NCBI GenBank assembly: GCA_012035135.1
Contig: JAAUPI010000008.1
Coordinates: forward strand, 1 to 47,556
From: Microcoleus sp. CSU_2_2
GTDB taxonomy: Bacteria; Cyanobacteriota; Cyanobacteriia; Cyanobacteriales; Microcoleaceae
Length of the DNA: 47,556 nt
Direction of reading: 5' to 3'
Made by a program: the position numbers and the translations under genes. Shown here one piece after another: positions 2-39,525 of the stretch (its first letter is position 1; each line of letters begins with the position of its first letter). Below the pieces are notes generated by a model, which saw only the letters and a list, made by a program, of their open reading frames with translations, had not been told where the DNA came from and did no database searches.

Positions 2-1849
2 TCTGGGGAAGCTGCCACCCTCAATAACAGCGGCTTAGTCTACTCAGCATTGGGAGACAAACAGAAAGCACTAGAGTATTACAGCCAGTCCCTTCGTCTT
101 AATCGGGCAGTAGGCAATCGCTCTGGGGAAGCTGTCAACCTTCTCAACATGGCTTATGTCAAACGCGATCGAAACAATCTTCCTGAAGCCCTTAAAGACA
201 TTGAATCTTCGATCGCGATCGTCGAAAATCTTCGCACCAAAATAGCCAGCCCAGAACTCCGCAGCTCGTACTTTGCCACAGTACAAAACTACTACGAATT
301 CTACATCGATTTGTTAATGCAACTGCATAAAACTAATCCTAAATCCGGTTACGATACAAAAGCCTTAGAAGTCAGCGAACGTTCTCGCGCCCGCAGCCTC
401 CTCGAACTCCTCCAAGAAAGTAATGCCAACATTCGCGAGGGTGTTTCCCCCGATTTATTGGAACAAGAAAAGAGCTTGCAACAGCAACTCGACGCCACAG
501 AAAAACGCCGGATAGAATTAGTCAGCAGCCCCAATCCCAATCCAGATTTAGTTGAAGCGATCGACAAAAAACGCCGGGAATTATTGCAACAATACCAGCA
601 AAATCAAACCCAAATTCGCAGCACCAGTCCGCGCTATGCTTCGCTCACCAAACCCCAACCTTTAACGCTGCCAGAAATTCAAAAACAGATTCTCGATGAA
701 AATACGATTTTACTGCAATATTCCCTCGGCAAAGACCGCAGTTATTTGTGGGTTGTGACAGCTACTGGAATCACCAGCTACGAACTTCCCAAACGCGCCG
801 ATATTGAAACAGCAGCCCGCACTTTTCGAGACTCTGTAACTCACCCCCGCTACAGAGAAATACCGAAAAGAGTTGCCGAAGCAAGCGCAAATTTGAGTCA
901 GTTAATTTTACAACCAGCCGCTGCCCAGTTAGGACAAAAACGCCTATTAATTGTTCCCGACGGCGTGCTGCACTATACTCCTTTTGCAGGTTTATCACTG
1001 ACACAGGCAGCAGGACAAAATGCTAGTAATTTCTTAATTGCCCAGCATGAAATTATTACCTTGCCTTCCGCATCAACTCTGGGTATTCTCCGGCAAAATT
1101 ACGCGGACAGAAAACAGCCAAGTCGAACTTTAGCAATTTTAGCCGATCCGGTTTTCAGTCTAGATGATGAACGAGTGAAGGGTAAAGTTACTCAAGCAAC
1201 GACCGAAAAGTTAGAATCAAATAATCTCGGTTTAAGTCGATCGAGCCGCGCTTCTAATATGTCATGGCCGCCTAAACGCCTGCCCTTTACTCGCCAAGAA
1301 GCCCAAACAATTTTAAATTTTATTCCGAACGCTTCGAGAACTCAAAACTTTGATTTCTCAGCCAGTCGCCGTAGCGCAACAGATGGCAGTTTAGCCAACT
1401 ATCAAATCTTGCACTTTGCAACTCACGGCATTGCCAACAGCGAACATCCTGAACTATCAGGAATTCTCATGTCTATGGTAGACGATCGAGGCAATCCGGT
1501 CAATGGTTTTTTGCGCCTCACCGACATTTTTAACTTGAAACTAGCTGCCAAATTGGTAGTTTTGAGTGCCTGTCAAACGGGTATGGGACAGAACGTTAAA
1601 GGCGAAGGCATGGTAGGATTGACCAGGGGTTTTATGTATGCTGGCGCGCAGCGGGTAGCCGTAAGTTTGTGGAATGTGGATGATGAAGGAACTTCTGTGT
1701 TGATGCAAAAATTTTATCAGAAAATGCTGCAAGAAAATTTAGCACCGGCAGCAGCGTTGAGGGCGGCGCAAATCGAAATAATGTCACAAGAAAAATGGAA
1801 GTCGCCCTATTATTGGGCAGCTTTTATGCTGCAAGGCGAATGGAAATGA
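2..1849 (+). CDS. TPR-CHAT domain protein, 5' truncated by window edge
   Basis: The open frame runs back to base 2, so the true start lies outside the window; the first internal start-like codon is a TTG at 50. The N-terminal part is the end of a tetratricopeptide array with 40-residue units of the form [15 protein letters not shown] coiled linker follows, then a C-terminal CHAT domain (caspase HetF associated with TPRs). The expected catalytic pair is visible: His in HFATHG (codon at 1424) and Cys in LSACQTG (codon at 1571). CHAT domains are caspase-like cysteine proteases; in cyanobacteria they occur in HetF-like regulators and in stress or suicide modules. The substrate cannot be told from sequence. 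It is a close paralogue of the next gene (2576-5631), in tandem with it, and supplies the intact reference that exposes the frameshift there. Confidence 0.93.
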
Positions 1850-1933
1850 ACCTATGGGAGATTTGAGATTTGAAATTATAAATATTATTGGCAATGGAAA
1901 AGCGAACAAAAAAACAAATTTTAATAACCTGTA

Positions 1934-2000
1934 GGGGCGAAGCATTCGGGCGACGATCGATAGAAAAGACCAGAATTTATCTACCCGAATGCTTCGCCCA
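1934..2000. repeat. Hairpin repeat (GGCGAAGCATTCGGG family), copy 1
   Basis: A perfect 16-bp inverted repeat, GGGCGAAGCATTCGGG at 1935-1950 and its complement at 1984-1999, encloses a 34-base loop. A second copy at 18278-18342 differs in both arms at two base pairs and stays fully paired. The 65-codon open frame over this stretch is an accident of the repeat. Confidence 0.75.
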
Positions 2001-2176
2001 ATCCCCGCAAAAAATCCCCGATCGCACTGTATTTTTCATCAATGATTCGATCTGGCCGAACTTTCTCAATACAAACCCGGAATAGCCTGTAGAATACAAT
2101 TAGGTTTGGTTCAATGTAAGACAATTTAAGTCGCACATGAAAGCAAATGAATCCCATTTGGGTTTATTTGTGGAGT

Positions 2177-2211
2177 ATTGGCAATTGGTAATTGGTAATT
2201 GGTAATTGGTT
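2177..2211. repeat. Heptameric short tandem repeat (GGTAATT)
   Basis: About four copies of the 7-mer GGTAATT in tandem. Short tandemly repeated heptamers like this are typical of intergenic DNA in filamentous cyanobacteria. No coding capacity is seen here. Confidence 0.8.
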
Positions 2212-2256
2212 AAAAAAGTTTTTTATTGTTTTGAGAGTCGGTCGATCGTCCCCAGG

Positions 2257-2408
2257 GTCCGACAGGGGTTAAAAACCCCTGTCTCATAGCGAAAGTCCTC
2301 TAAAAGAGGACTAAAATACAGCGTAATTTATCTTGTAATTACTTATTATTAACAGTCGGTTTTAACCGACTTAAGCTATGAGGCAGGGGTTTAAACCCCT
2401 GCCGGACT
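2257..2408. repeat. Inverted pair of two-hairpin palindromic elements
   Basis: Copy E1 (2257-2312) reads forward: a palindrome of the ACAGGGG...CCCCTGT type, the spacer CTCATAGC, then a hairpin AGTCCTCT...AGAGGACT. Copy E2 (2354-2408) is the same element in reverse; its second hairpin is AGTCGGTTTTAACCGACT, so the stem is different but still self-complementary. The same forward-reverse arrangement recurs at 11445-11754. This occupies most of the gap between the two TPR-CHAT genes. Confidence 0.75.
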
Positions 2409-2575
2409 GTGGGACTGCGGGTTGTATCTGATTGCTGGAATGCAAAAGAAGTCCGCACTACAAACTGTTTTTGTTACGATCGTCGATCGAACACGATATG
2501 ATATCCTCACTTCTTCCTACCTTTACACCAAGCGAGCTAAAGATTAAAATAGAAGTAAATACAAAAGGGGTAGTT

Positions 2576-5500
2576 ATGTTCGATCGCACTCAATTAATTT
2601 TGACTGGAATCTCGATCGCCCTGACCCTCCAATTCATTCCGCCAGTCGCAGCCTTACCACTTGAGGCAGCAGTACAAACAGCACAAACTAACAGCAATGA
2701 TGCCGCCGATCGAATATATCAAGAAGCAGAAAAACTCTACGAACAAGGAACGGCAGCAGCTTTCAAAAGTGCAATAATTAAATATGAAGAGGCTTTGAAA
2801 TTGTATCGAGAAACGGGCGATCGCGCGAAACAAGCGATCGCCCTCAACAGCATCGGTTTAGTTTACTCGCTATTGGGAGAGCAACAAAAAGCTTTAGCAT
2901 ATTTAAATCAGTCATTGCCCCTGAGTCAAGCCGCTGGCGATCGCAAGCAAGTAGCGAGCACTATTAGTAACTTCGGCTTCGTTTACTTAAAATTGGGAGA
3001 AAAACAAAAAGCTTTAGAGTATTTCAAACAATCCCTTCCTCTGGCTAGGGCTGCGGGCGATCGCAGCGGGGAAGCTATCACCCTCACCAATATTGGCAAT
3101 ACTTACTCAGATTTGGGAGAAAAACAGCAAGCTTTAGAATATTACAGGCAATCTCTGCCCCTAACTCGGGCAGTGGGCGATCGCAGGGGAGAAGCCATTA
3201 CTCTCAACAACATCGGCAAAGTTTACTCGGATTTGGGAGAACCACAAACAGCTTTAGAACATTACAACCGATCGCTTTCCTTAAGTCGGGAATTGGGCGA
3301 TCGAACGCAAGAAGCTACCACTCTCAACAACATCGCCGTTGTCTATTTGACTTTAGGAGAAACACAGAAAGCTTTAGAATATTTCGATAGATCCCTGCCT
3401 CTTAGTCGGGCTGTCGGCAATCGCAGTAACGAAGCTGTCACCCTCAGCAACATCGGCAAAATATACTCGGATTTGGGAGAAAAACAGCAAGCTTTGGAAT
3501 ATTACCAGCAATCGCTTTCCCTAAGTCAAACAGCGGGCGATCGATCGATCCAAGCTAATATATTAATCAACCTGGGCGCTGCTTACTCAGAATTGGGAGA
3601 AATAGAGAAAGCTTTAGAATATTACCACCAATCCCTGCATTTCAGTCGGGCTGCGGGCGATCGCATTGGGGAAGCTACCACACTCAGCAACATGGGCAGA
3701 ATCTACGACGATGCGGGAAACAGACAAGAAGCTTTAAAGTATTTCGATCGAGCTCTTTTCTTGAAACGTGCAACGGGCGATCGTAGCGGCGAAGCTACTA
3801 TTCTCAAAAACATCGGCTTAGCGTACTTAAAGCTGGGAGAAAAACAACAAGCTTTAGAATATTTCAGCCAATCACTTGTCCTGAGTCGGGCTGTCGGAAA
3901 TCCCGGAATCGAAGCTGTCACCCTGTTCGGCATGGCGGCTGCCAAACGCGATTTAGGCAAGCTTAATGAAGCCATCAAAGACATCGAAGCCTCCATCAAA
4001 ATTATCGAAAATCTCCGCACCAAAATTGCCAGTAACGAACTCCGTACCTCATACTTTTCCACAGTACAAGACTACTACGAATTCTACATCGACCTGTTAA
4101 TGCAACTGCACAAAACTCAACCGAAATCCGGTTACGATGCTAAAGCTTTAGCAGCCAGCGAACGTTCTCGCGCCCGCAGCCTACTCGAACTATTGAAAGA
4201 AGCAAAAACTAACATTCGCGAAGGTATTTCCTCAGATTTGCTGCATCAAGAACAGCAATTGCAACAGCAACTTGATGACATAGAAAAGCGCCGCATTGAA
4301 TTAGTCAGCAGTTCTACTCCGAACCAAGATGCGGTCGAGAATCTCGACAAAAACGCCTGGAATTATTGCAAAAATACCAGCAAAACCAAACTCAAATTCG
4401 CAGTACCAGTCCCCGCTATGCTTCCCTCACCCAACCCCAACCTTTAGCACTCCGAGAAATTCAGAAACAGATTTTAGATAAAAACACTGTTTTATTGGAA
4501 TATTCTCTCGGTGAAAAACAGAGTTATTTGTGGGTGGTGACAACAACAGAAATTACCAGCTACGAATTGCCAAAACGCGCCGACATTGAAACAGCAGCCC
4601 GCAATTTCCGAGACACAGTTACCAACCCCCGTTACAGAGATTTACCCAAAAGAGTTGCCGAAGCTAGCGCAAATTTGAGTGAATTAATTTTACAGCCAGC
4701 CGCCGCCCAGTTAGGAAACAAACGCCTATTAATTGTTCCAGACGGCGTGCTGCACTATACTCCTTTTGCCGCTTTATCGCTGCCAAAAGCAGCCCAACCA
4801 AATGCCAATAATTTCCTAATTTTCCAGCATGAAATTATTACCTTGCCTTCTGCTTCAACTCTCGCTATTCTCCGGCAAAATTATGCAGATCGAAAACCGC
4901 CAACTCAAACTTTAGCAATTTTAGCCGATCCGGTTTTCAGTCTAGACGATGAAAGAATCAAAGGAAAAATTACCCAAACAACGACCGAAAAGCTAGAATC
5001 AAACAATCTAGGTTTAAGTCGATCGCTCCGTACTTCCGATCTGGGATGGCCACCCGCTCGCCTACCATTTACCCGCCAAGAAGCCCAAACAATATTAGGT
5101 TTATTACCCCCAGTTTCGAGCAGTCAAAAATTTGATTTTGATGCCAGTCGTACTACTGCTACCGATGGCAGTTTAGCCAATTATCAGATAGTTCACTTTG
5201 CCACCCACGGCATCGCCAACAGTCAAAATCCCGAACTATCGGGAATTCTGATGTCAATGGTGGATGACAAGGGCAATCTTGTAAATGGCTTCTTGCGCCT
5301 CACGGATATTTTCAACCTGAAACTGGCAGCAAATTTAGTGGTTTTAAGTGCTTGTCAGACGGGACTGGGGCAGAATATTCAAGGCGAGGGAATGGTAGGA
5401 TTGACAAGGGGGTTTATGTATGCGGGGGCGCAGCGGGTGGGGGTGAGTTTGTGGAATGTAGACGATGAAGGAACTTCTGTATTGATGCAAAAGTTTTATC

Positions 5501-5631
5501 AGAAAATGCTGCAAGAAAAGTTAGCGCCAGCAGCAGCTTTGAGGGCGGCACAGATGGAATTGATGTCGCAAGAAAAATGGCGATCGCCTTATTATTGGGC
5601 TGCTTTTACCCTCCAGGGCGAATGGAAATAA
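2576..5631 (+). pseudogene. TPR-CHAT domain protein, frameshifted
   Basis: The ATG at 2576 follows a GGGG ribosome site and begins a signal-peptide-like stretch ([16 protein letters not shown], then PVAALP), so it is preferred over the upstream in-frame start at 2432. About ten TPR units of exactly 40 residues follow, visible in DNA as a 120-bp period with GGCGATCGC at most GDR junctions. The first frame ends at 4447, before any CHAT domain. The CHAT part continues in another frame (about 4366-5631) with HFATHG (His codon 5206) and LSACQTG (Cys codon 5353). Comparison with the upstream paralogue places the break at 4349-4353: five A here against six A at 566-571, so DKKRRELL becomes DKNAWNYC. 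This is either a genuine disruption or a homopolymer error; read through, it would be a secreted or membrane-attached CHAT protease. Confidence 0.88.
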
Positions 5632-6135: not shown

Positions 6136-6774
6136 ATGGCGTCTAGATATATGGAAAATCGACTGACCGAACCTCAACTAACGCAAATAGTAGCTGAAGT
6201 AGAACGCCTGTCTCGCATCCGGCAATCTCAACTTGATTCCGAAGCAGTCAAAGAAATTTTGCAGGAATTAAACTTGCCTCCAGAGTTGCTAGATGAAGCT
6301 TTAATCCAATTGCAGCGACGGAAAGCGCTGGCCGGAAAGCAGCGAAATCGATGGATTGTTGGAGTATTGGCGGTGGCTGTTGGGGCGATACCGATCGCAC
6401 TTGTCGGATTCTACATTTACCAAAACGAACAAGCGATCGACCGCGTTTCAGTTCAACAAAATCGCATAACTTTAGTGCAGGATAAGGGCGACAATTTAAC
6501 AGTTATTTCCCGGCAAAACAATCCAGAAATATTTTACCGAGTCACCTTAAAAGATGCGCCGATCGGGAAAAAACTCTCGCTATCTTGCGACTGGATCGAC
6601 CCCAGCGGGCAAATTGTCAAACAAAACAGCTATCAAACTCGCGAAATCGATAAAACTATCTGGAATACTCGATGCCGCTACCAAATCGGTAATGCTGCTG
6701 CTAGCGGAAATTGGCAAGTTAAAATGTTTCTAAATAAGCGCGCGATCGGCACCACATCTTTTGAAGTCAAATAA
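6136..6774 (+). CDS. Conserved hypothetical protein with one membrane helix
   Basis: I do not recognise a named family. Residues 1-70 are helical and charged (MENRLTEPQLTQIVAEVERL...), possibly a short regulatory or coiled-coil segment. Residues about 73-95 form one clear membrane helix (WIVGVLAVAVGAIPIALVGF). The remaining 115 residues look like a beta-rich domain outside the membrane, with an LSCDWIDPSG...NTRCRY pair of cysteines and a final strand GTTSFEVK. The ATG at 6136 is used; an ATG at 6151 is equally possible. It lies 87 bases before the AsnB-like gene on the same strand, but the pyrimidine-rich gap gives no sign of an operon. Confidence 0.8.
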   Translation: MASRYMENRLTEPQLTQIVAEVERLSRIRQSQLDSEAVKEILQELNLPPELLDEALIQLQRRKALAGKQRNRWIVGVLAVAVGAIPIALVGFYIYQNEQAIDRVSVQQNRITLVQDKGDNLTVISRQNNPEIFYRVTLKDAPIGKKLSLSCDWIDPSGQIVKQNSYQTREIDKTIWNTRCRYQIGNAAASGNWQVKMFLNKRAIGTTSFEVK

Positions 6775-6861: not shown

Positions 6862-8685
6862 ATGAAAACCGCCAACAAATCGCGTCAACTTCTAGGATAC
6901 TGGGGCTGCGATTCCCGCCAAAAACTAGAAGCGCTGCTAGCAAAATCTATCCTCCATTCTTTCCGAGAAATCCCAATTCAAAAAATCGCTGATTCCAACG
7001 CTGTTGGCGAAAACTATCCTATTTGGAACGTTGCCAGTACCGAAGTCGATCGCCCGCAAAACCAACAAACAAATAAGGGCGATATTACTGTGCAAATCGC
7101 CGCCCTCTCAGCATCTGGACTGTGTACTTATCCATCAAATAACGGCTTGCTGCTACCCGACGCCTGGGCAAACATTCGCGAAAATTGCCTGATTTTGGGA
7201 CGCGAACCCTTCGGGCGAGTAACGCTTTACTGGACGCAAATCGGACAAACTATTTGGTTTGCATCGAGATTGCAACTGCTGTTAAATATTCGGGAACAGC
7301 CAGAGGCAAGCATTCCCGGTTTGTACGGTTATAGCTGTTTTTCCTATGTGCCAACTCCCTTAACTCCCGTACAAAATGTGTTTGCAGTTACCGCAGGAAT
7401 GGAATTAACTTGGGAGTGCGATCGAGATGCTAGTATGATTTTACCACCCAAATCGCAACGCTTGTTAGAATGGCAAGAAAGTTCGGAAAAAATCCAAAAC
7501 GAAACAGAGGCGATCGACCAATTGCAAAACTTACTTAAAGATGCAATTGGTCGTCAAATTGCCGATATCAACAGCAATGAAACAGTCGGAGTATTTCTCT
7601 CAGGCGGTTTAGATTCCTCAGTTGTTGCAGCTTTATTAGTAAAAGCCGGAGTCAAAGTCCGCGCTTATACTCTCGACTTTGGCGAAGCCGGAATTTCCGA
7701 ATATCCTTGGGCAGAACAAGTAGCCTCCGCACTGCAAATTCCTTTAGTAAAAGTAGATGCCAAGCCGCAGCGAATCAAACAAGTTGTGAATGCTGCTGTG
7801 AAAGCTTTAGATTTACCTTTTGGTGACGGAGTTACAGTCCCGCTGTACCTGTTAAATCAAGCGGCAAGTCAAGAAACTGCGATCGTATTCAACGGCGAAG
7901 GCGGCGATCAGTTATTTGCTGGATGGACGAATAAACCCCTAATTGCAGCTAGCGTTTATCAAGCAGCAAATCCAACTGACAATAATAATTTTGCCCTGCA
8001 ATACTTGCGAACTTTTCACCGACTTTGGGGATGCGAAACTAAAGTTTACCAGCCGGAATTTTACGCTCAAATTCAGAATTTACACCCTCAAGATTGGCTG
8101 TTAGAGGCTCTGAATCCTGCATCAGGCGCGTCTTTGCTGCACCGCCTCCGGCGTGCGAGTTTGATGCTTAAAGGCGCGCAGAACATCCATCCTCGCGCTG
8201 CTAATTTAGCGTTAGATTGCGGGCTGAAAGTACGATCGCCCTTTTGCGATTTTGCTCTCGCAGACTGGACTTTTCAACTGTCAGGAGAGTTGTGTTTGCG
8301 GGGCGCTTGCGAGAAATACATCCTCAAACGGGCAGTGGAAAATTGGCTGCCAGCAGAAATAGTTTGGCGGGAAAAACGGGGGATGGGAGTTCCTTTAACT
8401 TCCTGGTGTTTTAATGAATTTTGGCATCAAATTGGCGATTGGTTGAATCCGGCGGTACTGCTGTCAGAAAAACGCTGGCAACCCGATTTAGCCGATCGAA
8501 TTATCTCGGGCAAATTCGCAGCAGGAATTCAAGGGCGTCGCATTGGCGAAATTTTGTGGCTGTTAATTATGTGGCAAATTTGGCGATCGCAAATTTTAGG
8601 TGAAGAGGTAAAACATAAATCTTGGAATCATCCATTTTGGTTGCCTCGATCGATTTGGAGTTACCGTCAGCGCTGGGCAAAATAA
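6862..8685 (+). CDS. Asparagine synthetase-like protein without glutaminase cysteine
   Basis: 607 residues. The C-terminal half is an AsnB-type ATP-pyrophosphatase domain: the PP-loop SGGLDSS at 247-253, then NGEGGDQLFAGW near 344-355, and the late motif RSPF plus EKYILKRAV...LPAEIVWREKRGM. The N-terminal half keeps the end of the class II amidotransferase fold (LGREPFGRVTLYW, FASRLQLLL, 112-141) but has no Cys at position 2, so glutamine hydrolysis is not expected. The usual acidic DE in GEGxDE is DQ. Related enzymes that lost the glutaminase (beta-lactam synthetase, lasso cyclase) adenylate a carboxylate to make an internal amide; that this one does is an inference. The next gene is a PLP-decarboxylase homologue, and a second member of this subfamily is at 11783, sharing the unusual motif NGEGGDxxFxG...NxP. 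Confidence 0.9.
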   Translation: MKTANKSRQLLGYWGCDSRQKLEALLAKSILHSFREIPIQKIADSNAVGENYPIWNVASTEVDRPQNQQTNKGDITVQIAALSASGLCTYPSNNGLLLPDAWANIRENCLILGREPFGRVTLYWTQIGQTIWFASRLQLLLNIREQPEASIPGLYGYSCFSYVPTPLTPVQNVFAVTAGMELTWECDRDASMILPPKSQRLLEWQESSEKIQNETEAIDQLQNLLKDAIGRQIADINSNETVGVFLSGGLDSSVVAALLVKAGVKVRAYTLDFGEAGISEYPWAEQVASALQIPLVKVDAKPQRIKQVVNAAVKALDLPFGDGVTVPLYLLNQAASQETAIVFNGEGGDQLFAGWTNKPLIAASVYQAANPTDNNNFALQYLRTFHRLWGCETKVYQPEFYAQIQNLHPQDWLLEALNPASGASLLHRLRRASLMLKGAQNIHPRAANLALDCGLKVRSPFCDFALADWTFQLSGELCLRGACEKYILKRAVENWLPAEIVWREKRGMGVPLTSWCFNEFWHQIGDWLNPAVLLSEKRWQPDLADRIISGKFAAGIQGRRIGEILWLLIMWQIWRSQILGEEVKHKSWNHPFWLPRSIWSYRQRWAK

Positions 8686-8837: not shown

Positions 8838-10064
8838 ATGCAAACAATTGTCGATCGCACCTCAATTCTCAAACAACCGCCTTTTACTCTCGCCCTAGCT
8901 GAAGAGTTATTAGCTACTTACGGTTCGCCACTTTACGTTTATCAAAGCGATATTTTGCGCGGAACGATCGCCCGCATTACTAACGCAATTTCCTATCCGC
9001 AAACTCAATTTTGTTTTGCCAGCGTGACAAACGGGAACATCGCACTGCTGCAAATTTTTCAAGCTTGCGGGTGGGGACTGCACGCCAATACACCGGGAGA
9101 TATTTATTTAGGAATTAAGGCAGGTTTTGCACCAAAAAAAATAGTTTACAGCGGCAGCAATTTGCACCAAAGCGAGATGGAACAAGTTCTTAGATGGGGT
9201 GTCAAAACTCTGAATTTGGACAGCCTCTCTCAGTTACAATTGTGCTGTGAAGTTTATCAAACTTTAAGGGAAAACCAACAGATTTTAGCACCGCCGCGTT
9301 TGGGATTGAGACTGAATTTGCCCGAACTAACTGGAGACAGTCGCATAGGAGTGCGATCGACTGAATTTCCCGATGCAATTTCCATAGCTAAAACAGCAGG
9401 ATTAAAACTCAGCGGCTTGCATTTTTATCGCGGTACGGGAACTAATTCTACCGCAGCTTTTACTCAAGTAATCGATACTGTAATTGCCACCGCCCAGCAA
9501 TTGCCAGATTGGGAATATCTCGATTTTGGCGGGGGTTTTGGCTATCCTTATCGCGGGGGTACAGCCTTTGATTGGGAACTGTTCGGCGCGGAACTAACTA
9601 ACAGAATTAATCGGCTCTATCGACCGATTGATTTGATTGTTGAACCGGGGCGATCGGCCGTGGCGGGATGCGCAACTTTGCTCGCCAGAGTTGTTTCTAC
9701 AAAATGGCAGGAAGCCAAACAAATAGTCGGCGTAGATACCACTGTTGCGAATCTTTCTGTACCCTCAGTTCACGGCGGTTATCGAGAGATTTGTACTTGG
9801 AATTGCCAGGATTCCTTGCACGTTACAGATGTTTGCGGGAATACCACTTATTCGCGAGATTATTTGGGAAAAAACTGTCAACTTCCGGCTTTGAGAGTTG
9901 GGGAAGTTCTGGGTATTTTAGATGTGGGGGCTTACGGATATGCGATGTCGTCGCACTTTTTGCACCGTCCTAGGCCAGCGGAAGTGCTGTTAGAAAATAG
10001 CCACCACCGCCTAATTCGCCGCAGAGAAGATTACAGAGTTTTGTTAGCCAATCAAGTTTTTTGA
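8838..10064 (+). CDS. Fold-type III PLP decarboxylase homologue lacking the PLP lysine
   Basis: 408 residues, the usual length for the diaminopimelate/ornithine decarboxylase family. Preserved: DFGGGFG (229-235, phosphate-binding glycines), EPGRS (269-273), the Cys of DVCGN (333), and GAYGYAMSSHF (364-374). The segment that is normally F-A-V-K-A-N reads F-A-S-V-T-N at 60-65, so the Schiff-base lysine is Val63 (GTG at 9024). The ring-stacking HxHIGS motif is HFYRGT (195-200), His to Tyr, and the aspartate after it in the family (GFDVAS) is His82. By known family chemistry this protein should not form an internal aldimine; it is probably a pseudoenzyme or regulator like antizyme inhibitor, or it uses PLP differently. 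It sits between AsnB-like genes and is followed closely by the gene at 10085. Confidence 0.9.
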   Translation: MQTIVDRTSILKQPPFTLALAEELLATYGSPLYVYQSDILRGTIARITNAISYPQTQFCFASVTNGNIALLQIFQACGWGLHANTPGDIYLGIKAGFAPKKIVYSGSNLHQSEMEQVLRWGVKTLNLDSLSQLQLCCEVYQTLRENQQILAPPRLGLRLNLPELTGDSRIGVRSTEFPDAISIAKTAGLKLSGLHFYRGTGTNSTAAFTQVIDTVIATAQQLPDWEYLDFGGGFGYPYRGGTAFDWELFGAELTNRINRLYRPIDLIVEPGRSAVAGCATLLARVVSTKWQEAKQIVGVDTTVANLSVPSVHGGYREICTWNCQDSLHVTDVCGNTTYSRDYLGKNCQLPALRVGEVLGILDVGAYGYAMSSHFLHRPRPAEVLLENSHHRLIRRREDYRVLLANQVF

Positions 10065-10084
10065 ATCATCAAGAGGAGAGTTTT

Positions 10085-11386
10085 ATGAAGTGCATTAAAT
10101 GCGGAACAGACAATAAGTTAAAAGATCGCACATCCAGAGGTCGCTGTATGCGATGCAACCATCAGTTTGCTTTTGAACCGACTCGAATGACTGGTGTCAA
10201 AATAACTGACCCGATGTTTGCCAAGGCGATCGACGATGTTTCTGTGAACGATACGCTGTTTTTTACTCCCCGACAGTTATTTTATCTTTTGGACAAGCGA
10301 TCGAAACCAAAAATTTCTAAGGCTTTATTAACAGTCCCAGGATACCTATTTCTTAATGTATGTTTGGGTATCTTTGTTGCTCTCTGGACAGCAGGTATAT
10401 CTTTTGAAGGGAATATAGTTTGGATTCTCATAATGTTTGGGATCAATAGTTTATTGATTAAACAAACTTTTACTGCTAGCCGTTCTAGCACATATCCATA
10501 CCAAGAACGCCAGAAATTTGCGAAAAAATTGCAAATTTGGGGAGTAATAGTTCTGGTTTATGGAATAGGTGTTAATTTGTTATCAAGTTCCTTTCTACTG
10601 TTTTTAGCTAGCTCTATTCTAGGAATGATATCTATCTATTTGGGTAATTTGAAAGTTGATAAACAACCTGCAAATAATCAAGGATTTACGATTAATTTAA
10701 ATCAGTTTCAAGACTGGATTGATACTTGGGTACGAATTAACTCTCTGACTAAATTGCTACCCTCTCCCCGCGATACAAATGAAAATGTCGCCGTCAATCC
10801 CGATGTCAGCGCTTACAGTTTCGATCGAGTGGTTGTGTGCGATCGCGCGGAAATTGCCCAGTTTTTAATCGCCAACAACTTTCATTTTGAACACAACTGT
10901 GCAGTCCTCAGCATTACCGGATATCCTCAAAGTATCTTTGACACAACTATGCAAATGCTGCGCCGAAATCCCGACTTAAAAGTGTACGCTTTGCACGATT
11001 GCACTCCCCGAGGAATTGGTTTAGTTAACCACCTGCGCACCAGTCCTAATTGGTTCCCAGATAGCAGCGCGATAATTATTGATATCGGACTGCTACCCCG
11101 GCAAATTATGGCGGCTGACAGCAATATGTTTGTTCTAAATTCTCAGAGTTCGGCACAAGATGCTAGAGAATTGTCACCAGCAATTCGCCAAGATTTATCT
11201 GCTGAAGAATCCCAGTGGTTGGAATCAGGTAATTATGTAGAATTGGAATCATTCAGTCCTCAAAGGCTCATTCAAATTCTGAATTTAGGAATTGCCGGGA
11301 GTCGAGATTTAGATAGCGATGACAGTAGTTTAATTCTGGTAGGGGGTGTGGGTAGTTCTATCTATGTTGTTGACAGTTTTGGTTGA
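10085..11386 (+). CDS. Zinc-ribbon membrane protein of unknown function
   Basis: The ATG at 10085 is chosen because AGAGGAG lies 6 bases upstream; the longer TTG start at 10061 would overlap the previous stop. The protein opens with a zinc ribbon, CIKCG...CMRCN (residues 3-26). Two or more hydrophobic stretches follow (residues about 85-130 and 165-205). The soluble C-terminal part contains VVVCDRAEIAQFL, HDCTPRGIGLVNHLR and AIIIDIGLLPRQI; this is reminiscent of a TOPRIM-like or nucleotide-binding fold, but I cannot assign it. The 20-base gap to the PLP homologue and the good ribosome site suggest co-transcription. The later half has several HIP1-like sites, the membrane part none. Confidence 0.85.
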   Translation: MKCIKCGTDNKLKDRTSRGRCMRCNHQFAFEPTRMTGVKITDPMFAKAIDDVSVNDTLFFTPRQLFYLLDKRSKPKISKALLTVPGYLFLNVCLGIFVALWTAGISFEGNIVWILIMFGINSLLIKQTFTASRSSTYPYQERQKFAKKLQIWGVIVLVYGIGVNLLSSSFLLFLASSILGMISIYLGNLKVDKQPANNQGFTINLNQFQDWIDTWVRINSLTKLLPSPRDTNENVAVNPDVSAYSFDRVVVCDRAEIAQFLIANNFHFEHNCAVLSITGYPQSIFDTTMQMLRRNPDLKVYALHDCTPRGIGLVNHLRTSPNWFPDSSAIIIDIGLLPRQIMAADSNMFVLNSQSSAQDARELSPAIRQDLSAEESQWLESGNYVELESFSPQRLIQILNLGIAGSRDLDSDDSSLILVGGVGSSIYVVDSFG

Positions 11387-11782: not shown

Positions 11783-13580
11783 GTGAAATTGACTGTGTTT
11801 AAAAATACATTTAGGTGCCAAAATATGCTCGATTACAAATCATTGTTAAGTAATAAAAGCCACCACCAACAAACATCCCATCTCAGTTCAAATTCAACGC
11901 TTGAATCTGCCTCAAATTGGCGGATAGCCTGGGGTAAAATAGATGCGATCGACCCCTCCAGTACAGTTTTGCATGAAGGTAAAATTGCAATTATCTCCTC
12001 GAATCCCAACGCTCATCTAAGTATAAGTCCTTCAAAACAATTTATAGTAATCGGCGATATTTGGCTCAGCAACCGATTGGAATTGCTGGCAAAATTGGGG
12101 ATTGCTGCTAGTAATTGGCAGGGCTGCGATCGCCAATTAATCGCTCAATTGTGGGAACGCTGGGGAGTTGAATGTTTGCCGCTTTTGGCGGGTATGTTTT
12201 GCTTTGCAATTTGGGATCGGGAAAGGCAAGTTTTGCGGCTGGTGCGCGATCGCGCGGGGGCACGAACTCTCTACTATACTAATGTTGGCGCGACTCGCTG
12301 GATTGCTCCTCAATTGCGGGCGATCGCACCTTACCGTTCCAGCGAACTCGACCTCGTAGCCCTGCGAGATTACCTCTGTTGTTCCTTCGTTCCGGGCGAT
12401 CGTACCCTCTGGCAACAAGTGCGAGAACTCCGCCCAGGAAGCATTTTAAGCTTCCCTGACGGCACGATTTCCGCTTACTGGGAACTCCGAGAACAAGTTG
12501 TCGAAGCCACACAATCTTTAGAATGGCACGGCGCGAGATTGCGTTCTCTTTTAGATGAAATTGTCCGAGAATATTTGCCAGAAAATCAATCTGTAGGCGT
12601 CTTTCTTTCCGGCGGGTTAGACTCTAGCTGCATCGCCGCTTTAGCTGCTAAATTTCACGATCGCACCGTTCATACATACTCAATTCATTTCGGTGCAGAC
12701 ACCCCCAACGAATTAGAGTTTTCCAGTTTAGTTGCCCGCCACTGCAACACCGAACACCACATTTTAGAAATTACCTTTCGGGATATGTGGGAAAAGTTGC
12801 CAGAAACAATGGCTTATTTAGACGATCCGATCGGCGATCCGCTGACAGTGCCAAACTTGCTGTTAGGAAAATTAGCGCGAGAATCTGTCGGAGTTGTCCT
12901 CAACGGCGAAGGCGGGGACCCCTGTTTTGGCGGGCCGAAAAATCAACCGATGTTAATTAACAGCTTGTACAATTCTCTCACTAATTTGGATGCGCTGCCA
13001 GCGTATTTGCTGTCATTTAAAAAGTGCGCTGCGGATTTGCCTCAACTGTTAAAACCGGAAATTTGGGCGGCGGTAAAAACAGCACCTTCGGTATTTACTG
13101 CGGATTTGAATGCTAGTAGCAATTATCTCAATCGATTGATGGCGTTAAACATTAAATTTAAGGGCGCAGACCAGATTTTGACCAAAGTGAATAACTTGAC
13201 TCAAGCAGCAGACTTGCACGGGCGATCGCCCTTTTGACCAGCGAATAGTCGATCTGAGCATGACTGTACCTCCAGAGTACAAACTATCGGGAGTTGTAGA
13301 AAAAGCTGTTTTAAAACAAGCAGTTGCTAACATTTTGCCAGCCGAAATTTTAGAACGACCGAAAAGCGGCATGATGGTGCCAGTACATTTGGGATTTAAA
13401 AAGTTTTGGCAGCGCCAAGCTAGGGATTTGTTGCTGTCAAAAAAAGCTGCGATCGCTCCTTATTTCGAGCGAGATTCGATCGTTCAATGGTTGGATTATC
13501 AAGGAGATACTTGGGGGCGTTACGGCGCTAAACTGTGGCTGTTGGCGAGTTTAGAGATTTGGCTGCAAAACAATAAATAG
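11783..13580 (+). CDS. Asparagine synthetase-like protein 2, interrupted by +1 frameshift
   Basis: The first frame (GTG 11783, or ATG 11825) ends at a TGA at 13235. The rest of the synthetase domain follows in the +1 frame to 13580. It keeps WDRERQVLRLVRDRAGARTLYY (glutaminase-fold end), the PP-loop SGGLDSS (276-282) and NGEGGDPCFGG (about 374-384); there is no N-terminal Cys. Skipping one T restores the canonical RSPFDQRIVDLSM and leads into EKAVLKQAV...LPAEI. The break reads CCC TTT TGA C; a Phe tRNA on TTT can move one base and pair with TTT again, as in the prfB frameshift (CTT TGA C), but no strong internal ribosome site precedes it. It may therefore be recoding, decay or an extra T. Its subfamily signature NGEGGDxxFxG...NxP matches the gene at 6862. 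Confidence 0.87.
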
Positions 13581-32042: not shown

Positions 32043-35000
32043 ATGTTCACTCACGTCAAGCCCACCATTCGCCACGTTGTGCCGGAAAACTTGCAGGGTC
32101 GATCGCTCCTCAAGGTGGTATATGTCGTGCTAGAACCGCAGTATCAAAGTGCCTTGTCGGCGGCGGTTCGATCGATAAATAAGAAAAATCCGAATCTGGC
32201 AATCGAAATCAGTGGCTATTTAATCGAGGAACTCCGCAGCCCGGAAAATTACGAAGCCTTCAAGCGGGATGTCGCTGATGCCAACGTATTTATTGCTTCT
32301 CTAATTTTTATCGAAGATTTGGCAGAAAAGGTTGTAGCGGCGGTGGAACCGGTGCGCGACAGCTTGGATGTCGCCGTCGTCTTCCCGTCGATGCCTGCGG
32401 TGATGCGCCTCAATAAAATGGGCAGTTTCTCGATGGCACAATTGGGACAAAGCAAAAGTGCGATCGGCGAATTCATGAAAAAGCGGAAGGAAAAATCCGG
32501 CAGCTCCTTCCAAGACGGAATGCTAAAACTGTTGCAAACTTTGCCGAAAGTTCTGAAATATTTGCCTCTTGACAAAGCCCAAGATGCACGTAATTTTATG
32601 CTGAGTTTCCAATATTGGCTGGGAGGTTCCCAAGAAAACTTGGAAAACTTCTTGCTAATGCTGTCAGATAAATATGTGTTCAAAGGCCAGAGGGCAACCA
32701 CGGGGGGATTGCCCGTACAATATCAAGATCCAGTTGTTTACCCGGACATGGGGATTTGGCATCCTTTAGCACCGTCGATGTTTGAGGATGTAAAAGGATA
32801 TTTGACCTGGTATAATGCCCGCAAAGATATTTCTGCCGACCTCAAAGATCCTCTCGCACCTTGCATCGGTTTAGTGTTGCAACGCACTCACTTAGTAACA
32901 GGAGATGACGCGCACTACGTAGCAATGGTGCAGGAATTGGAGGCAATGGGGGCGCGGGTTGTGCCGATTTTTGCCGGCGGTTTGGACTTCTCAAAACCCG
33001 TTGAAACTTTTTTCTTGGAAGTTGGGGCCAAAGGCGTCACACCGCTGCCAATTGTTGATGCGGTGGTTTCTCTGACTGGTTTTGCGTTGGTGGGCGGCCC
33101 GGCGAGACAAGATCACCCAAAGGCGATCGAATCTTTGAAAAAATTGAATCGTCCTTATATGGTGGCTTTGCCGCTGGTTTTCCAAACAACAGAAGAATGG
33201 GAAAATAGCGATTTAGGCTTGCACCCGATTCAAGTTGCTTTGCAAATTGCAATTCCTGAGTTGGATGGTGCGATCGAACCGATTATTTTGTCGGGAAGAG
33301 ATGGCACGACGGGCAAGGCGATCGCGCTGCAAGATAGAATTGAGGCGATCGCCCAGCGTTCCATGAAATGGGCAATGCTGCGTCGCAAACCGAAATTAGA
33401 TAAGAAAATTGCGATTACAATTTTCAGTTTTCCGCCCGATAAAGGCAACGTGGGAACTGCCGCTTATCTGGATGTTTTCGGCTCGATTTACGAAGTAATG
33501 AAAGCCTTAAAAGGCAACGGTTACGACTTGCCAGAATTGCCGGATTCTGCCGAAAATTTAATGCAAGAAGTCATCCACGATGCCACAGCCCAATATCAAA
33601 CTCCCGAATTAAATATCGCCCACCGGATGTCCGTAGCCGAGTACGAAGAATTCACTCCTTACTCGGAACGCTTGCACGAAAATTGGGGACCACCTCCCGG
33701 ACATTTGAACAGCGACGGACAAAATTTGCTGATTTACGGCAAACATTTTGGCAATGTATTTATCGGAGTCCAACCTACTTTCGGATACGAAGGCGATCCG
33801 ATGCGGTTGTTATTCTCTCGTTCCGCCAGTCCCCACCACGGTTTTGCTGCTTACTATACGTATTTAGAGCGCATTTGGGGTGCGGATGCGGTGCTGCATT
33901 TCGGCACTCACGGTTCGCTGGAATTCATGCCCGGTAAGCAGATGGGAATGTCTGGGGAATGCTATCCCGACAGTTTAATTGGCAAGATTCCTAACATCTA
34001 TTATTACGCGGCTAACAATCCCAGCGAGGCAACAATTGCGAAACGCCGCAGTTATGCTGCAACGATTTCTTACTTGACTCCGCCGGCGGAAAATGCTGGT
34101 TTGTACAAAGGTTTGCAAGAACTCAATGAGTTGATTGCTTCTTATCAAACTTTGAAAGATACAGGCCGCGGCATATCGATCGTAGATGCGATTATTGAGA
34201 AATGCCGTTTGGTGAATCTCGATAAGGATATTGCGTTACCAGTCGATAAAGGTGGACAAGGAAGCGTGGCGGCCCAAATGACTGCCGAGGAACGAGACAA
34301 TTTAATCGGGTTGGTATACCGCAAATTGATGGAGATTGAGTCGCGGTTGTTACCTTGCGGTTTGCACGTTGTTGGGAAGCCACCGACTGCCGAAGAGGCG
34401 ATCGCAACTTTGGTAAACATAGCCAATTTAGACCGTGAAGAAGACGGACTTGTCAGCTTGCCGCGGATTATCGCCAACAGTCTGGGACGCGATATCAATG
34501 AAATTTACACAAACAGCGACAAAGGCATTTTAACCGATGTCGAATTGCTGCAAAACATCACTTTTGCCTGCCGCGATGCTGTTAGCGCCTTAGTCAAAGA
34601 ACAAACCGACGCCGAGGGTCGAGTTTCGCTAGTTTCCAAGTTGAATTTCTTCAACATGGGCAAGAAAGAACCTTGGATTGAATCCTTGCACGCATCGGGC
34701 TACAAAAAAATCGATCCAGAACCCATTAAACCGCTGTTTGAGTATCTGGAATTCTGCTTGCAGCAAGTTTGCGCCGACAACGAATTAGGTGCATTATTGC
34801 GCGCCCTAGAAGGCGAATATATTCTCCCCGGCCCCGGTGGCGATCCGATTCGGAACCCGGATGTTTTGCCGACGGGCAAGAATATGCACGCTTTAGATCC
34901 GCAGTCAATCCCCACCACAGCGGCGGTTAAGTCTGCGAAGATTGTAGTCGATCGACTATTACAAAGACAGCGCCTCGATAACGGCGGCAACTATCCCGAA

Positions 35001-36062
35001 ACCATCGCCGTCGTCCTCTGGGGAACCGACAACATCAAAACTTACGGTGAATCCCTCGCCCAAGTAATGTGGATGGTGGGAGTCAAGCCAGTTCCCGACG
35101 CTTTAGGCCGGGTAAACAAACTCGAATTGCTTTCCTTGGAAGAGTTGGGACGCCCCAGAATTGACGTAGTAATTAACTGTTCTGGCGTGTTCCGCGACTT
35201 GTTCATCAACCAAATGAACCTGTTAGATAAAGCCGTGAAAATGGCAGCAGAAGCCGACGAACCACTAGAAATGAACTTCGTCCGCAAACACGCCTTGAAG
35301 CAAGCCGAAGAAATGGGAATCAACCTACGGCAAGCAGCAACCCGCGTCTTTTCCAATGCCTCCGGTTCCTATTCATCTAACGTCAACTTAGCGGTAGAAA
35401 ACAGCACCTGGGAAAGCGAAAATGAGTTGCAAGAAATGTACTTAGCCCGCAAATCCTTCGCTTTTTCTTCCGACAATCCAGGAACAATGGAACAAGATCG
35501 GCAGATTTTTGAATCATCCTTAAAAACTGCTGAAGTCACCTTCCAAAACTTGGATTCTGCGGAAATTTCGCTAACCGACGTGTCGCACTATTTCGACTCA
35601 GATCCGACGAAATTAATCGGCAGTTTGCGAGGCGACGGGAAACAGCCGGCATCATTTATAGCTGATAGCACGACGGCGAACGCGCAGGTACGGACGCTAT
35701 CAGAAACCGTGCGTTTAGATGCGCGGACAAAGATGCTAAATCCCAAGTGGTACGAGGGGATGTTATCGCACGGATACGAAGGTGTGCGGGAACTTTCCAA
35801 GCGTTTGGTAAACACGATGGGATGGAGTGCGACTGCGGGCGCGGTTGACAATTGGGTGTACGAGGATGTGAATGAAACGTTCATGAAAGATGCGGAAATG
35901 CAGAAGCGTTTGCTTAACTTGAATCCGCATTCTTTCCGCAAGATGGTGAGCACTTTGCTGGAGGTGAATGGCCGGGGTTATTGGGAGACTTCGGAGAGTA
36001 ATTTAGACCGTTTGCGCGAGTTGTATCAGGAGGTGGAAGACCGGATTGAGGGTGTAGAGTAA
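32043..36062 (+). CDS. chlH: Magnesium chelatase subunit H
   Basis: 1339 residues, the normal size for ChlH/BchH. The N-terminal DUF3479-type domain (about 15-180) is followed by the CobN/Mg-chelatase body with [39 protein letters not shown] and the [19 protein letters not shown] segment. ChlH binds protoporphyrin IX and, with ChlI and ChlD (not in this window), inserts Mg2+ with ATP as the first committed step of chlorophyll synthesis. AAAGGAG lies 8 bases before the ATG. It is a single-gene unit with a long leader of about 250 bases. Confidence 0.97.
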
Positions 36063-38157: not shown

Positions 38158-39525
38158 ATGAATCCAACTATGTACGCTCAACAACTAGAATTATTCGATC
38201 TATTCAATCCAAGTTCTAACAAAGCCCGATCGCACTTTACATTTGTAGACTTATTTGCTGGAATTGGTGGCTTTAGAATTCCTCTGGAAGAATTAGGAGG
38301 TCAATGTTTTGGCTATTCAGAAATAGACAAAAAAGCTATTCAAGTTTATCGCAAGAATCTTATTAAAGATGACAACTCGGATGAGGTATATTTAGGAGAT
38401 ATTACCAATCTCAATAAATTTCCTTTTGACATAGATGTATTAGTCGGTGGCGTTCCCTGTCAACCTTGGTCGATCGCAGGTAAATTACAAGGTTTAGACG
38501 ATCCAAGAGGCCAGCTATGGAGAGATGTATTTAGAGTAGTCAAAGCCAATCGTCCCAAAGCTTTTATCTTTGAAAATGTCAAAGGCTTGACCGAACCCAG
38601 AAATATAGAAAGCTTGAAATACATAATTAATAATTTGACAGCATCTGGTTATGTTGTCAAATACGAGGTGCTAAATTCCTATGATTTTGGGCTCCCGCAA
38701 GATAGAGATAGATTGTTTCTTGTTGGCATTAGGAACGACATTGAAAAATCCTGGGGATTTACATTTCCTAAACCCCTCGACCGCCAGATAAAACTTTATA
38801 ATGTAATACCAGGAATTGAGCGCAGCAATTTTCAGAAGAAAAAATTTCCCCCAAGCGTTTTATTTGATGGCAAAATCCCAGCTTCCAGAGGCAGATTTCA
38901 AAAGATAGATGAATTAAATGATTTCTTCTTATTTACTGATATTCGAGATGGACATACTGCCATCCATTCTTGGGACTTAATAGAAACAACCAGCCGGGAA
39001 AAATTAATTTGTCAAACAATTATGAAAAATCGCAGAAAAAATATTTATGGAGACAAGGATGGCAATCCTTTGGAATTTAAAGTGTTAAAAATGCTCGTAC
39101 CTGAGTTACAACAATCAGAACTCGATTGCTTAGTTGCCAAAGACATTTTGCGGACTGTAGATAGTAAAGGTTATGAGTTTGTGAATTCTAAAATATCTTC
39201 AGGAATTAACGGAATTTCTAAGATTTTCTTGCCTCATGCAGATGCGATCGCCACTTTGACTGCAACTGGAACTAGAGATTTTGTAGCCACAATGTCGATC
39301 GAATGTCAAGAACCAGCAGCCTACAAGCAAACCTTTATTACAGAAATTTATCAAAAGCATAAATTCCAACCCTTAACTGCACGAGATTACGCAAAATTGC
39401 AAGGATTTCCCGAATGGTTCAAAATTTATGAAAGTGAAAATACCGCAAAACATCAATTAGGTAATGCTGTGTCAATTCCAGTAGTTTACCATTTAACCAA
39501 AGCGTTACTGGAAATTATTTTGTAA
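38158..39525 (+). CDS. DNA (cytosine-5) methyltransferase of a type II restriction-modification system
   Basis: 455 residues with the C5-methyltransferase motifs in order: DLFAGIGGFR (31-40, SAM site), GGVPCQPWSIAG with the nucleophile Cys101, ENVKGL (139-144), QDRDRLFLVG (motif VIII), and LTARDYAKLQGFP...QLGNAVSIPV (motifs IX-X) at the C-terminus. The region between motifs VIII and IX is the target recognition domain. It methylates C5 of a cytosine in the target; if the partner is TdeIII-like the site could be GGNCC (inference). The ATG starts 1 base after the ATPase stop, and the endonuclease follows after 14 bases. Confidence 0.96.
   Translation: MNPTMYAQQLELFDLFNPSSNKARSHFTFVDLFAGIGGFRIPLEELGGQCFGYSEIDKKAIQVYRKNLIKDDNSDEVYLGDITNLNKFPFDIDVLVGGVPCQPWSIAGKLQGLDDPRGQLWRDVFRVVKANRPKAFIFENVKGLTEPRNIESLKYIINNLTASGYVVKYEVLNSYDFGLPQDRDRLFLVGIRNDIEKSWGFTFPKPLDRQIKLYNVIPGIERSNFQKKKFPPSVLFDGKIPASRGRFQKIDELNDFFLFTDIRDGHTAIHSWDLIETTSREKLICQTIMKNRRKNIYGDKDGNPLEFKVLKMLVPELQQSELDCLVAKDILRTVDSKGYEFVNSKISSGINGISKIFLPHADAIATLTATGTRDFVATMSIECQEPAAYKQTFITEIYQKHKFQPLTARDYAKLQGFPEWFKIYESENTAKHQLGNAVSIPVVYHLTKALLEIIL

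Follow-up and report, generated by a model that had tools for sequence, protein, structure and literature searches.

A lysine-less relative of diaminopimelate decarboxylase encoded beside AsnB-like genes in cyanobacteria

The VAL gene and its active-site residues

The DNA analysed here is a 47,556-nt stretch of contig JAAUPI010000008.1 from the cyanobacterium Microcoleus sp. CSU_2_2 (assembly GCA_012035135.1; hereafter the window), in which an open reading frame (ORF) on the forward strand encodes a relative of diaminopimelate (DAP) decarboxylase, LysA, that has valine in place of the lysine forming the Schiff base with pyridoxal phosphate (PLP). We refer to this protein as VAL. Residue equivalences were read from four phmmer alignments (2p3e, 3n2b, 2yxx and 4xg1), and the counts given with each feature refer to the 115 distinct family sequences described in the next section.

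8838..10064, + strand: ORF of VAL, the Lys-less DAP decarboxylase-like protein, 408 aa
9024..9026, + strand: Val63 (codon GTG) at the Schiff-base Lys position; Val in 115/115
9081..9083, + strand: His82 at the position of an early Asp (Asp88 of ornithine decarboxylase, ODC); His in 115/115
9426..9428, + strand: Tyr197, within HFYRGT, at the ring-stacking His position; Tyr in 115/115
9528..9536, + strand: GGG (residues 231–233), phosphate loop, retained; Gly in 115/115 at each
9642..9653, + strand: EPGR (residues 269–272), with the pyridine-nitrogen Glu and the phosphate Arg, retained; E269 and R272 in 115/115
9759..9773, + strand: Val308 to His312, remodelled loop (R-P-x-x-Y in LysA); V308 in 113/115, H312 in 110/115
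9846..9851, + strand: Thr337-Tyr338 at the catalytic Cys-Glu position; T337 in 115/115, Y338 in 113/115

In all four alignments, Val63 falls on the Lys of the F/Y-A-x-K-A-N type motif, which together with the ORF translation bears out an earlier sequence-only reading of this DNA. That reading was also right about the change of the early Asp to His and about the retention of the phosphate-binding GGG, of EPGR and of GAYG (residues 364–367), and it was mistaken in taking the catalytic Cys to be kept: this position is Thr337 in every one of the four alignments, the next residue, a Glu in the decarboxylases, is Tyr338, and Cys333 is a different residue. Absent from it were the changes in the R-P-x-x-Y motif of LysA, whose substrate-binding Arg is Val308 and whose Tyr is His312 in nearly all family members. 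For the FigC structure, the published account (PMC7857480) identifies K63 as the aldimine Lys, H198 as stacking on the ring and C354 as the catalytic base, with E287 touching the pyridine nitrogen, G237–239 and R290 touching the phosphate and R151 near the hydroxyl; another paper (PMC5518511) lists the active-site residues of ODC. The ring-stacking His had likewise been read correctly as Tyr, but its weight was overstated: four Lys-bearing relatives (L156–L159, for which the label "BtrK-like" is our own) have Tyr at 197 and keep both Lys and Cys, so this change can occur with the Lys in place and is not by itself a sign of lost activity.

Both Orn/DAP/Arg decarboxylase domains of Pfam were found in VAL (4e-22 and 4e-13), and the beta/alpha barrel and beta domain of the alanine racemase fold (fold type III) span its full length. 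Beyond these general domains, Pfam and NCBIfam gave only NCBIfam models under their cutoffs, including lysA TIGR01048 (241.2 bits; cutoff 297.9) and the exosortase-A-associated decarboxylase TIGR03099 (94.5 bits; cutoff 478.45). Compared with LysA (for example 2p3e, 2qgh and 1twi), VAL has Val for the Schiff-base Lys, His for Asp, Thr-Tyr for the catalytic Cys-Glu (GPxCE, supplied by the partner subunit) and Val for the R-P-x-x-Y Arg, and unlike the BtrK-like proteins L156–L159 it has neither the Lys nor the Cys of the BtrK/exosortase-A group. One annotated family member is nevertheless labelled "decarboxylase".

Conservation within the family

A scan with the window protein, covering 84,980 species at one genome each, yielded 107 stretches with 90 relatives, and the best 80 of the 90, which we took further, were all cyanobacterial by record title. 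Among 111 loci read, 106 contained family members, every one with Val, and five contained ordinary LysA with Lys. A deeper set of 150 ORFs of at least 350 aa comprised 131 distinct sequences: 115 family members, 15 others (13 with Lys and 2 with Met), and L138, a truncated, fused copy with Ala at the place aligned to Val63 that was set aside. All 115 family sequences carry Val63, Asn65, His82, Asn84, Asp88, Tyr197, Thr200 and Thr337, and all retain Arg158, GGG, Glu269, Arg272 and Tyr366; Thr64, Val308 and Tyr338 (113/115 each), Arg198 (112/115) and His312 (110/115) are nearly fixed. Pairwise identity has a median of 68% and reaches down to 37%, so the family does not represent a recent expansion.

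The replaced positions are themselves held constant. Of 43 columns conserved in the 13 Lys-bearing rows but changed in the family, 27 are constant across 113 or more of the 115 sequences, compared with 55 of 297 other columns; the P value of 6e-9 is only a guide because the rows are related. Nei-Gojobori dN/dS was 0.094–0.125 for eight pairs that include the window gene and 0.130–0.377 for seven other pairs, the highest value coming from the least diverged pair. VAL thus matches the general pattern of a pseudoenzyme, an enzyme fold kept under purifying selection with its catalytic residues replaced, and may well be inactive. The sequence-only reading had named a PLP aldimine at another lysine as an observation that would speak against it. 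Only K289 (115/115) and K294 (97/115) are Lys in 80% or more of the family; the former is Lys in all 15 of the other rows and the latter Lys or Arg in 13 of them, which leaves no family-specific candidate for a substitute Schiff-base Lys among the conserved columns.

Neighbouring genes

Four further genes surround VAL on the same strand.

6136..6774, + strand: conserved protein with one hydrophobic segment (by eye); homologue in 61/68 loci
6862..8685, + strand: AsnB1, an AsnB-like amide synthetase lacking the N-terminal glutaminase Cys; Pfam Asn_synthase 1.9e-52
10061..11386, + strand: protein with a zinc ribbon, hydrophobic segments (by eye) and a Toprim-like domain; TOP6A-Spo11_Toprim 21.8 bits, cutoff 24.1
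11783..13580, + strand: AsnB2, a second AsnB-like lineage, in two ORFs of different frames (11783–13237 and 13260–13580); a single 587-aa ORF in L032

The two synthetases form separate lineages (support of 100/100 each in a tree of 23 rows), and both retain the machinery of the synthetase domain: the SGGxDSS PP-loop is present in 75 of 77 AsnB1 homologues and SGGxDS in 45 of 45 AsnB2, with the catalytic-Lys motif in 76 of 77 and 44 of 45, respectively. Neither has the nucleophile of a glutamine-dependent asparagine synthetase. No Cys-Gly-Ile occurs within the first 70 residues of the 77 AsnB1 and 45 AsnB2 sequences, and from the predicted start codons Cys is the second residue in none of the 77 and in one of the 45; other conserved Cys residues lie deeper (75/78 AsnB1 rows; 44/46 and 41/46 AsnB2 rows). 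On the lasso cyclase model, AsnB1 scored 45 bits and AsnB2 133 bits against a cutoff of 525. The split of AsnB2 in the window, as opposed to the single ORF of relatives such as L032, reflects either an assembly error or a true break.

For the zinc-ribbon/Toprim-like protein, the conserved start is probably the ATG at 10085. Its rows contain CxxC..CxxC in 87 of 89 cases, and the Toprim-like domain has His312 and Gly318 in 89 of 89 and does not keep the Glu/DxD pattern of canonical Toprim domains; no chain in the PDB matched this protein by sequence at E values up to 1. Several enzyme folds at the VAL locus are therefore conserved with the textbook catalytic residue replaced. The 6136–6774 protein matched no Pfam family at 1e-3, the sub-cutoff matches being at 0.011 and 0.031. 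A defence system was considered and set aside, as PADLOC run on five locus proteins gave nothing beyond a weak match of AsnB1 to QueC (26.2 bits). In the gap between AsnB1 and VAL of L087 (8086–8729), a small ORF is followed by a PIN-like ORF, an arrangement that by eye resembles a toxin-antitoxin pair, and L078 (8614–8838) has this small ORF as well.

Linkage and co-occurrence

Across 68 loci of at least 12 kb, the zinc-ribbon/Toprim-like gene was found in 67, an AsnB-family gene in 66 and the 6136–6774 homologue in 61, with the next commonest cluster in 20. The sequence-only reading had proposed looking for a conserved non-Lys residue in homologues near AsnB-like genes, and this is what these loci and the invariant Val provide. 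Among 386 sampled genomes of the phylum, the VAL family (assigned by score, at least 44% identity) was present in 35 and absent from 351; a further 23 genomes had LysA-type matches at up to 32% identity, which were not counted as VAL. AsnB1 (E up to 1e-60) occurred in 33 of the 35 VAL genomes and in none of the 351 others. The Toprim-like gene (E up to 1e-15) accompanied VAL in every one of the 35 and turned up in four further genomes, once as a fragment. VAL and AsnB1 share a contig in G219 but are far apart there, and in G171 what is left of the two is fused. VAL was found in two of 18 genomes examined from another class of the phylum: G065 has VAL, the Toprim-like gene and AsnB2, and G097 has these three together with AsnB1, whereas G061, G072 and G092 of this class have only the Toprim-like gene and AsnB2 and no VAL. 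This nested gene pattern suggests stepwise assembly, with loss equally possible.

Several individual loci had features of their own. In G423 (L165, C1:3540000-3556000), VAL, AsnB1 and the Toprim-like gene all contain internal stops, a joint decay of the locus. The locus of Gloeothece verrucosa PCC 7822 (L140, NC_014534.1) lies on a plasmid typed as conjugative whose record is given as linear; a small ORF with the annotation PEP-CTERM and a gene of the protelomerase family are close by. A viral origin was not borne out by a scan of viral contigs, in which 185 stretches matched by pattern and none encoded a VAL relative.

Lys-less relatives in rhizobia

Outside cyanobacteria, we looked for Lys-less relatives among plasmid records and found distant matches on three rhizobial plasmids (L141, NZ_CP050298.1; L142, NC_019846.2; L152, NZ_CP149879.1), the first annotated as alanine racemase and the second as DAP decarboxylase, with the third record unannotated. 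These proteins, represented by WP_280515984.1 and WP_015241380.1, share with VAL a non-Lys residue at 63 (Met) as well as Asn84, Tyr197, Thr200 and Thr337, and differ in retaining Arg308 of LysA. The L141 and L142 genes lie directly behind genes for SPASM-type and B12-type radical S-adenosylmethionine (SAM) enzymes; the B12-type genes are nearest to ApyD, a maturase of ribosomally synthesized and post-translationally modified peptides (RiPPs), at 298 and 239 bits, well under the cutoff of 750.

In a maximum-likelihood tree of 46 rows, for which the root is not known and some branches are long, the VAL family and the rhizobial Lys-less proteins fell on one side of a branch (100/99) and all 20 Lys-bearing rows on the other, and the VAL family alone formed one side of another branch (98/96). 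Removing 24 trait columns left support at 99/96 for all Lys-less proteins and 97/93 for the VAL family.

Interpretation

With about even confidence, we interpret VAL as a dedicated pseudoenzyme family that arose from a LysA-type decarboxylase of the alanine racemase fold, binds a ligand and serves the neighbouring AsnB-like and Toprim-like proteins; its job probably differs from that of the lysine-making enzyme. VAL should not decarboxylate, because it is predicted to be unable to form the internal PLP aldimine and the catalytic Cys-Glu is lost. The phosphate cup and the residues contacting the pyridine nitrogen and phosphate are retained beside a fixed new pocket of Val63, His82, Asn84, Tyr197, Thr337, Tyr338 and Val308, and the old PLP site may hold a non-covalent ligand, perhaps a B6 vitamer or some other molecule that carries a phosphate or resembles an amino acid. 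VAL might present this ligand to, or regulate, the ATP-dependent AsnB-like synthetases and the zinc-ribbon/Toprim-like protein. Beta-lactam synthetase uses an amine other than glutamine-derived ammonia, and AsnB1 and AsnB2 should also use another amine because they have no glutaminase. Physical partnership and an amide product are what we infer from this arrangement. A pseudoenzyme reading was already part of the sequence-only account; the fixed Val and the AsnB-family genes at 66 of 68 loci agree with it, and the evidence joining VAL to AsnB consists of adjacency and co-occurrence.

Several observations weigh against this interpretation. The structure model is a monomer without cofactor, and its loop at 308–315 has a pLDDT (predicted local distance difference test) below 50. 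G065 and G398 carry VAL without AsnB1 at the cut-offs used, so AsnB1 is not an obligate partner; conversely, G061, G072 and G092, from the other class, have the Toprim-like gene and AsnB2 without VAL, which is therefore not essential to that pair and not an obligate part of the whole system. The rhizobial sisters adjoin radical SAM genes instead of AsnB, so the Lys-less proteins as a whole do not share the AsnB link. Finally, neither the co-occurrence nor the column P values are true probabilities, since the rows are kin.

A broader version, which we advance tentatively, is that the Lys-less proteins, spanning two cyanobacterial classes and rhizobial plasmids, form an ancient branch of the LysA fold whose PLP pocket has become a binding or catalytic site free of a Schiff base, and that in cyanobacteria this branch was incorporated step by step into an amide-ligase system not described before (Toprim-like protein and AsnB2, then VAL, then AsnB1) that makes an amide product. 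Amidation of meso-DAP with VAL as the meso-DAP-binding subunit appears unlikely, given that VAL has Val308 in place of the LysA Arg and that neither AsnB lineage has the N-terminal Cys.

Among the alternatives, VAL could be a catalyst with altered chemistry, acting on non-covalent PLP, pyridoxamine phosphate (PMP) or another phosphate-bearing substrate with His82, Tyr197 or Thr337/Tyr338 as acid-base groups. The cofactor-site residues G231–233, E269, R272, R158, Y366 and T200 are invariant, the lost catalytic residues have given way to equally invariant polar ones, and Lys-less enzymes using PMP exist in another PLP fold. We nonetheless consider this rather unlikely, as Val is incapable of transaldimination, the Cys, the second catalytic group, has gone as well, and no precedent in this fold was found in the literature searched (titles and abstract starts of open-licence papers). 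It is unlikely, too, that VAL and its rhizobial sisters bind the substrate or peptide in RiPP-like peptide-tailoring systems, with an AsnB-like cyclase or ligase in cyanobacteria and radical SAM enzymes in rhizobia. The ApyD-like neighbours of L141 and L142 and the grouping of these proteins with VAL are consistent with such a role, but twelve small ORFs in the window gaps, compared with the other loci as candidate RiPP precursors, had no match beyond the window itself except a weak one in L024, and those in the AsnB1–VAL gaps of nine other loci were, by eye, common to near relatives only (L094/L096/L106; L078/L087). Both synthetases also score far below the lasso cyclase cutoff.

Antizyme inhibitor and prozymes regulate other decarboxylases, and VAL might similarly form heterodimers with true LysA across the shared dimer interface, leaving it inactive or modulated. 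Active sites of this fold are shared across the dimer (PMC7857480), and a LysA-type match was present in 25 of 26 family genomes. However, LysA is only about 25–30% identical to VAL and lies on another contig in the window's own genome, and a LysA-type or family match was found in 59 of 59 genomes of the relatives sample while VAL is absent from 351 of 386 and tracks the AsnB and Toprim-like genes instead. Because its distribution does not follow that of LysA, this role is less likely than non-aldimine catalysis or peptide tailoring, and we regard it as improbable. That Val63 is a sequencing error, the other observation named beforehand as contrary, or that the gene is a decaying pseudogene would suit a fragmented assembly (357 contigs, 84% complete) with a split AsnB2 next door, yet both are refuted by Val in all 115 distinct sequences, a Lys-to-GTG change needing at least two base substitutions, and a dN/dS of about 0.1.

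Comparison with known systems

Returning to the pseudoenzyme interpretation, one known parallel is antizyme inhibitor, a pseudoenzyme of ODC and thus a catalytically dead member of the same fold, which differs in acting on antizyme and in matching VAL at only 24.5–27.9 bits. AsnB1 and AsnB2 resemble beta-lactam synthetase and CarA, which also have an AsnB-type synthetase domain with the ATP loop kept and no glutaminase Cys at the N-terminus, although the AsnB2 matches are weak (CarA 67 bits, beta-lactam synthetase 39.7) and lower than those to the hydroxyamidotransferase 7ylz (88.8) and AsnB 1ct9 (75.7). We found no paper on the VAL family or its locus by title or abstract start, and no earlier description, in the open-licence literature searched, of a bacterial Lys-less family derived from LysA with a frozen new pocket and AsnB/Toprim gene company.

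The family matters for annotation, since "decarboxylase", "alanine racemase" and "diaminopimelate decarboxylase" have been assigned to proteins without the residue on which that chemistry depends. With phosphate and nitrogen contacts frozen while Lys and Cys are gone, VAL could show if a PLP fold persists for non-covalent ligand binding, and the linked AsnB-like enzymes without glutaminase Cys suggest that many cyanobacteria possess an uncharacterised pathway of amide formation.

Other genes in the window

Upstream of the locus, the window contains three ORFs with TPR and CHAT domains within 50–5631 (50–1849, 2432–4447 and 4366–5631), the last two overlapping in different frames, and comparable genes precede the locus in L037, L064 and L068. 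Further downstream, we noted an ordinary CobN/Mg-chelatase protein (32043–36062) and an equally ordinary C-5 cytosine DNA methylase (38158–39525; Pfam 2.2e-76).
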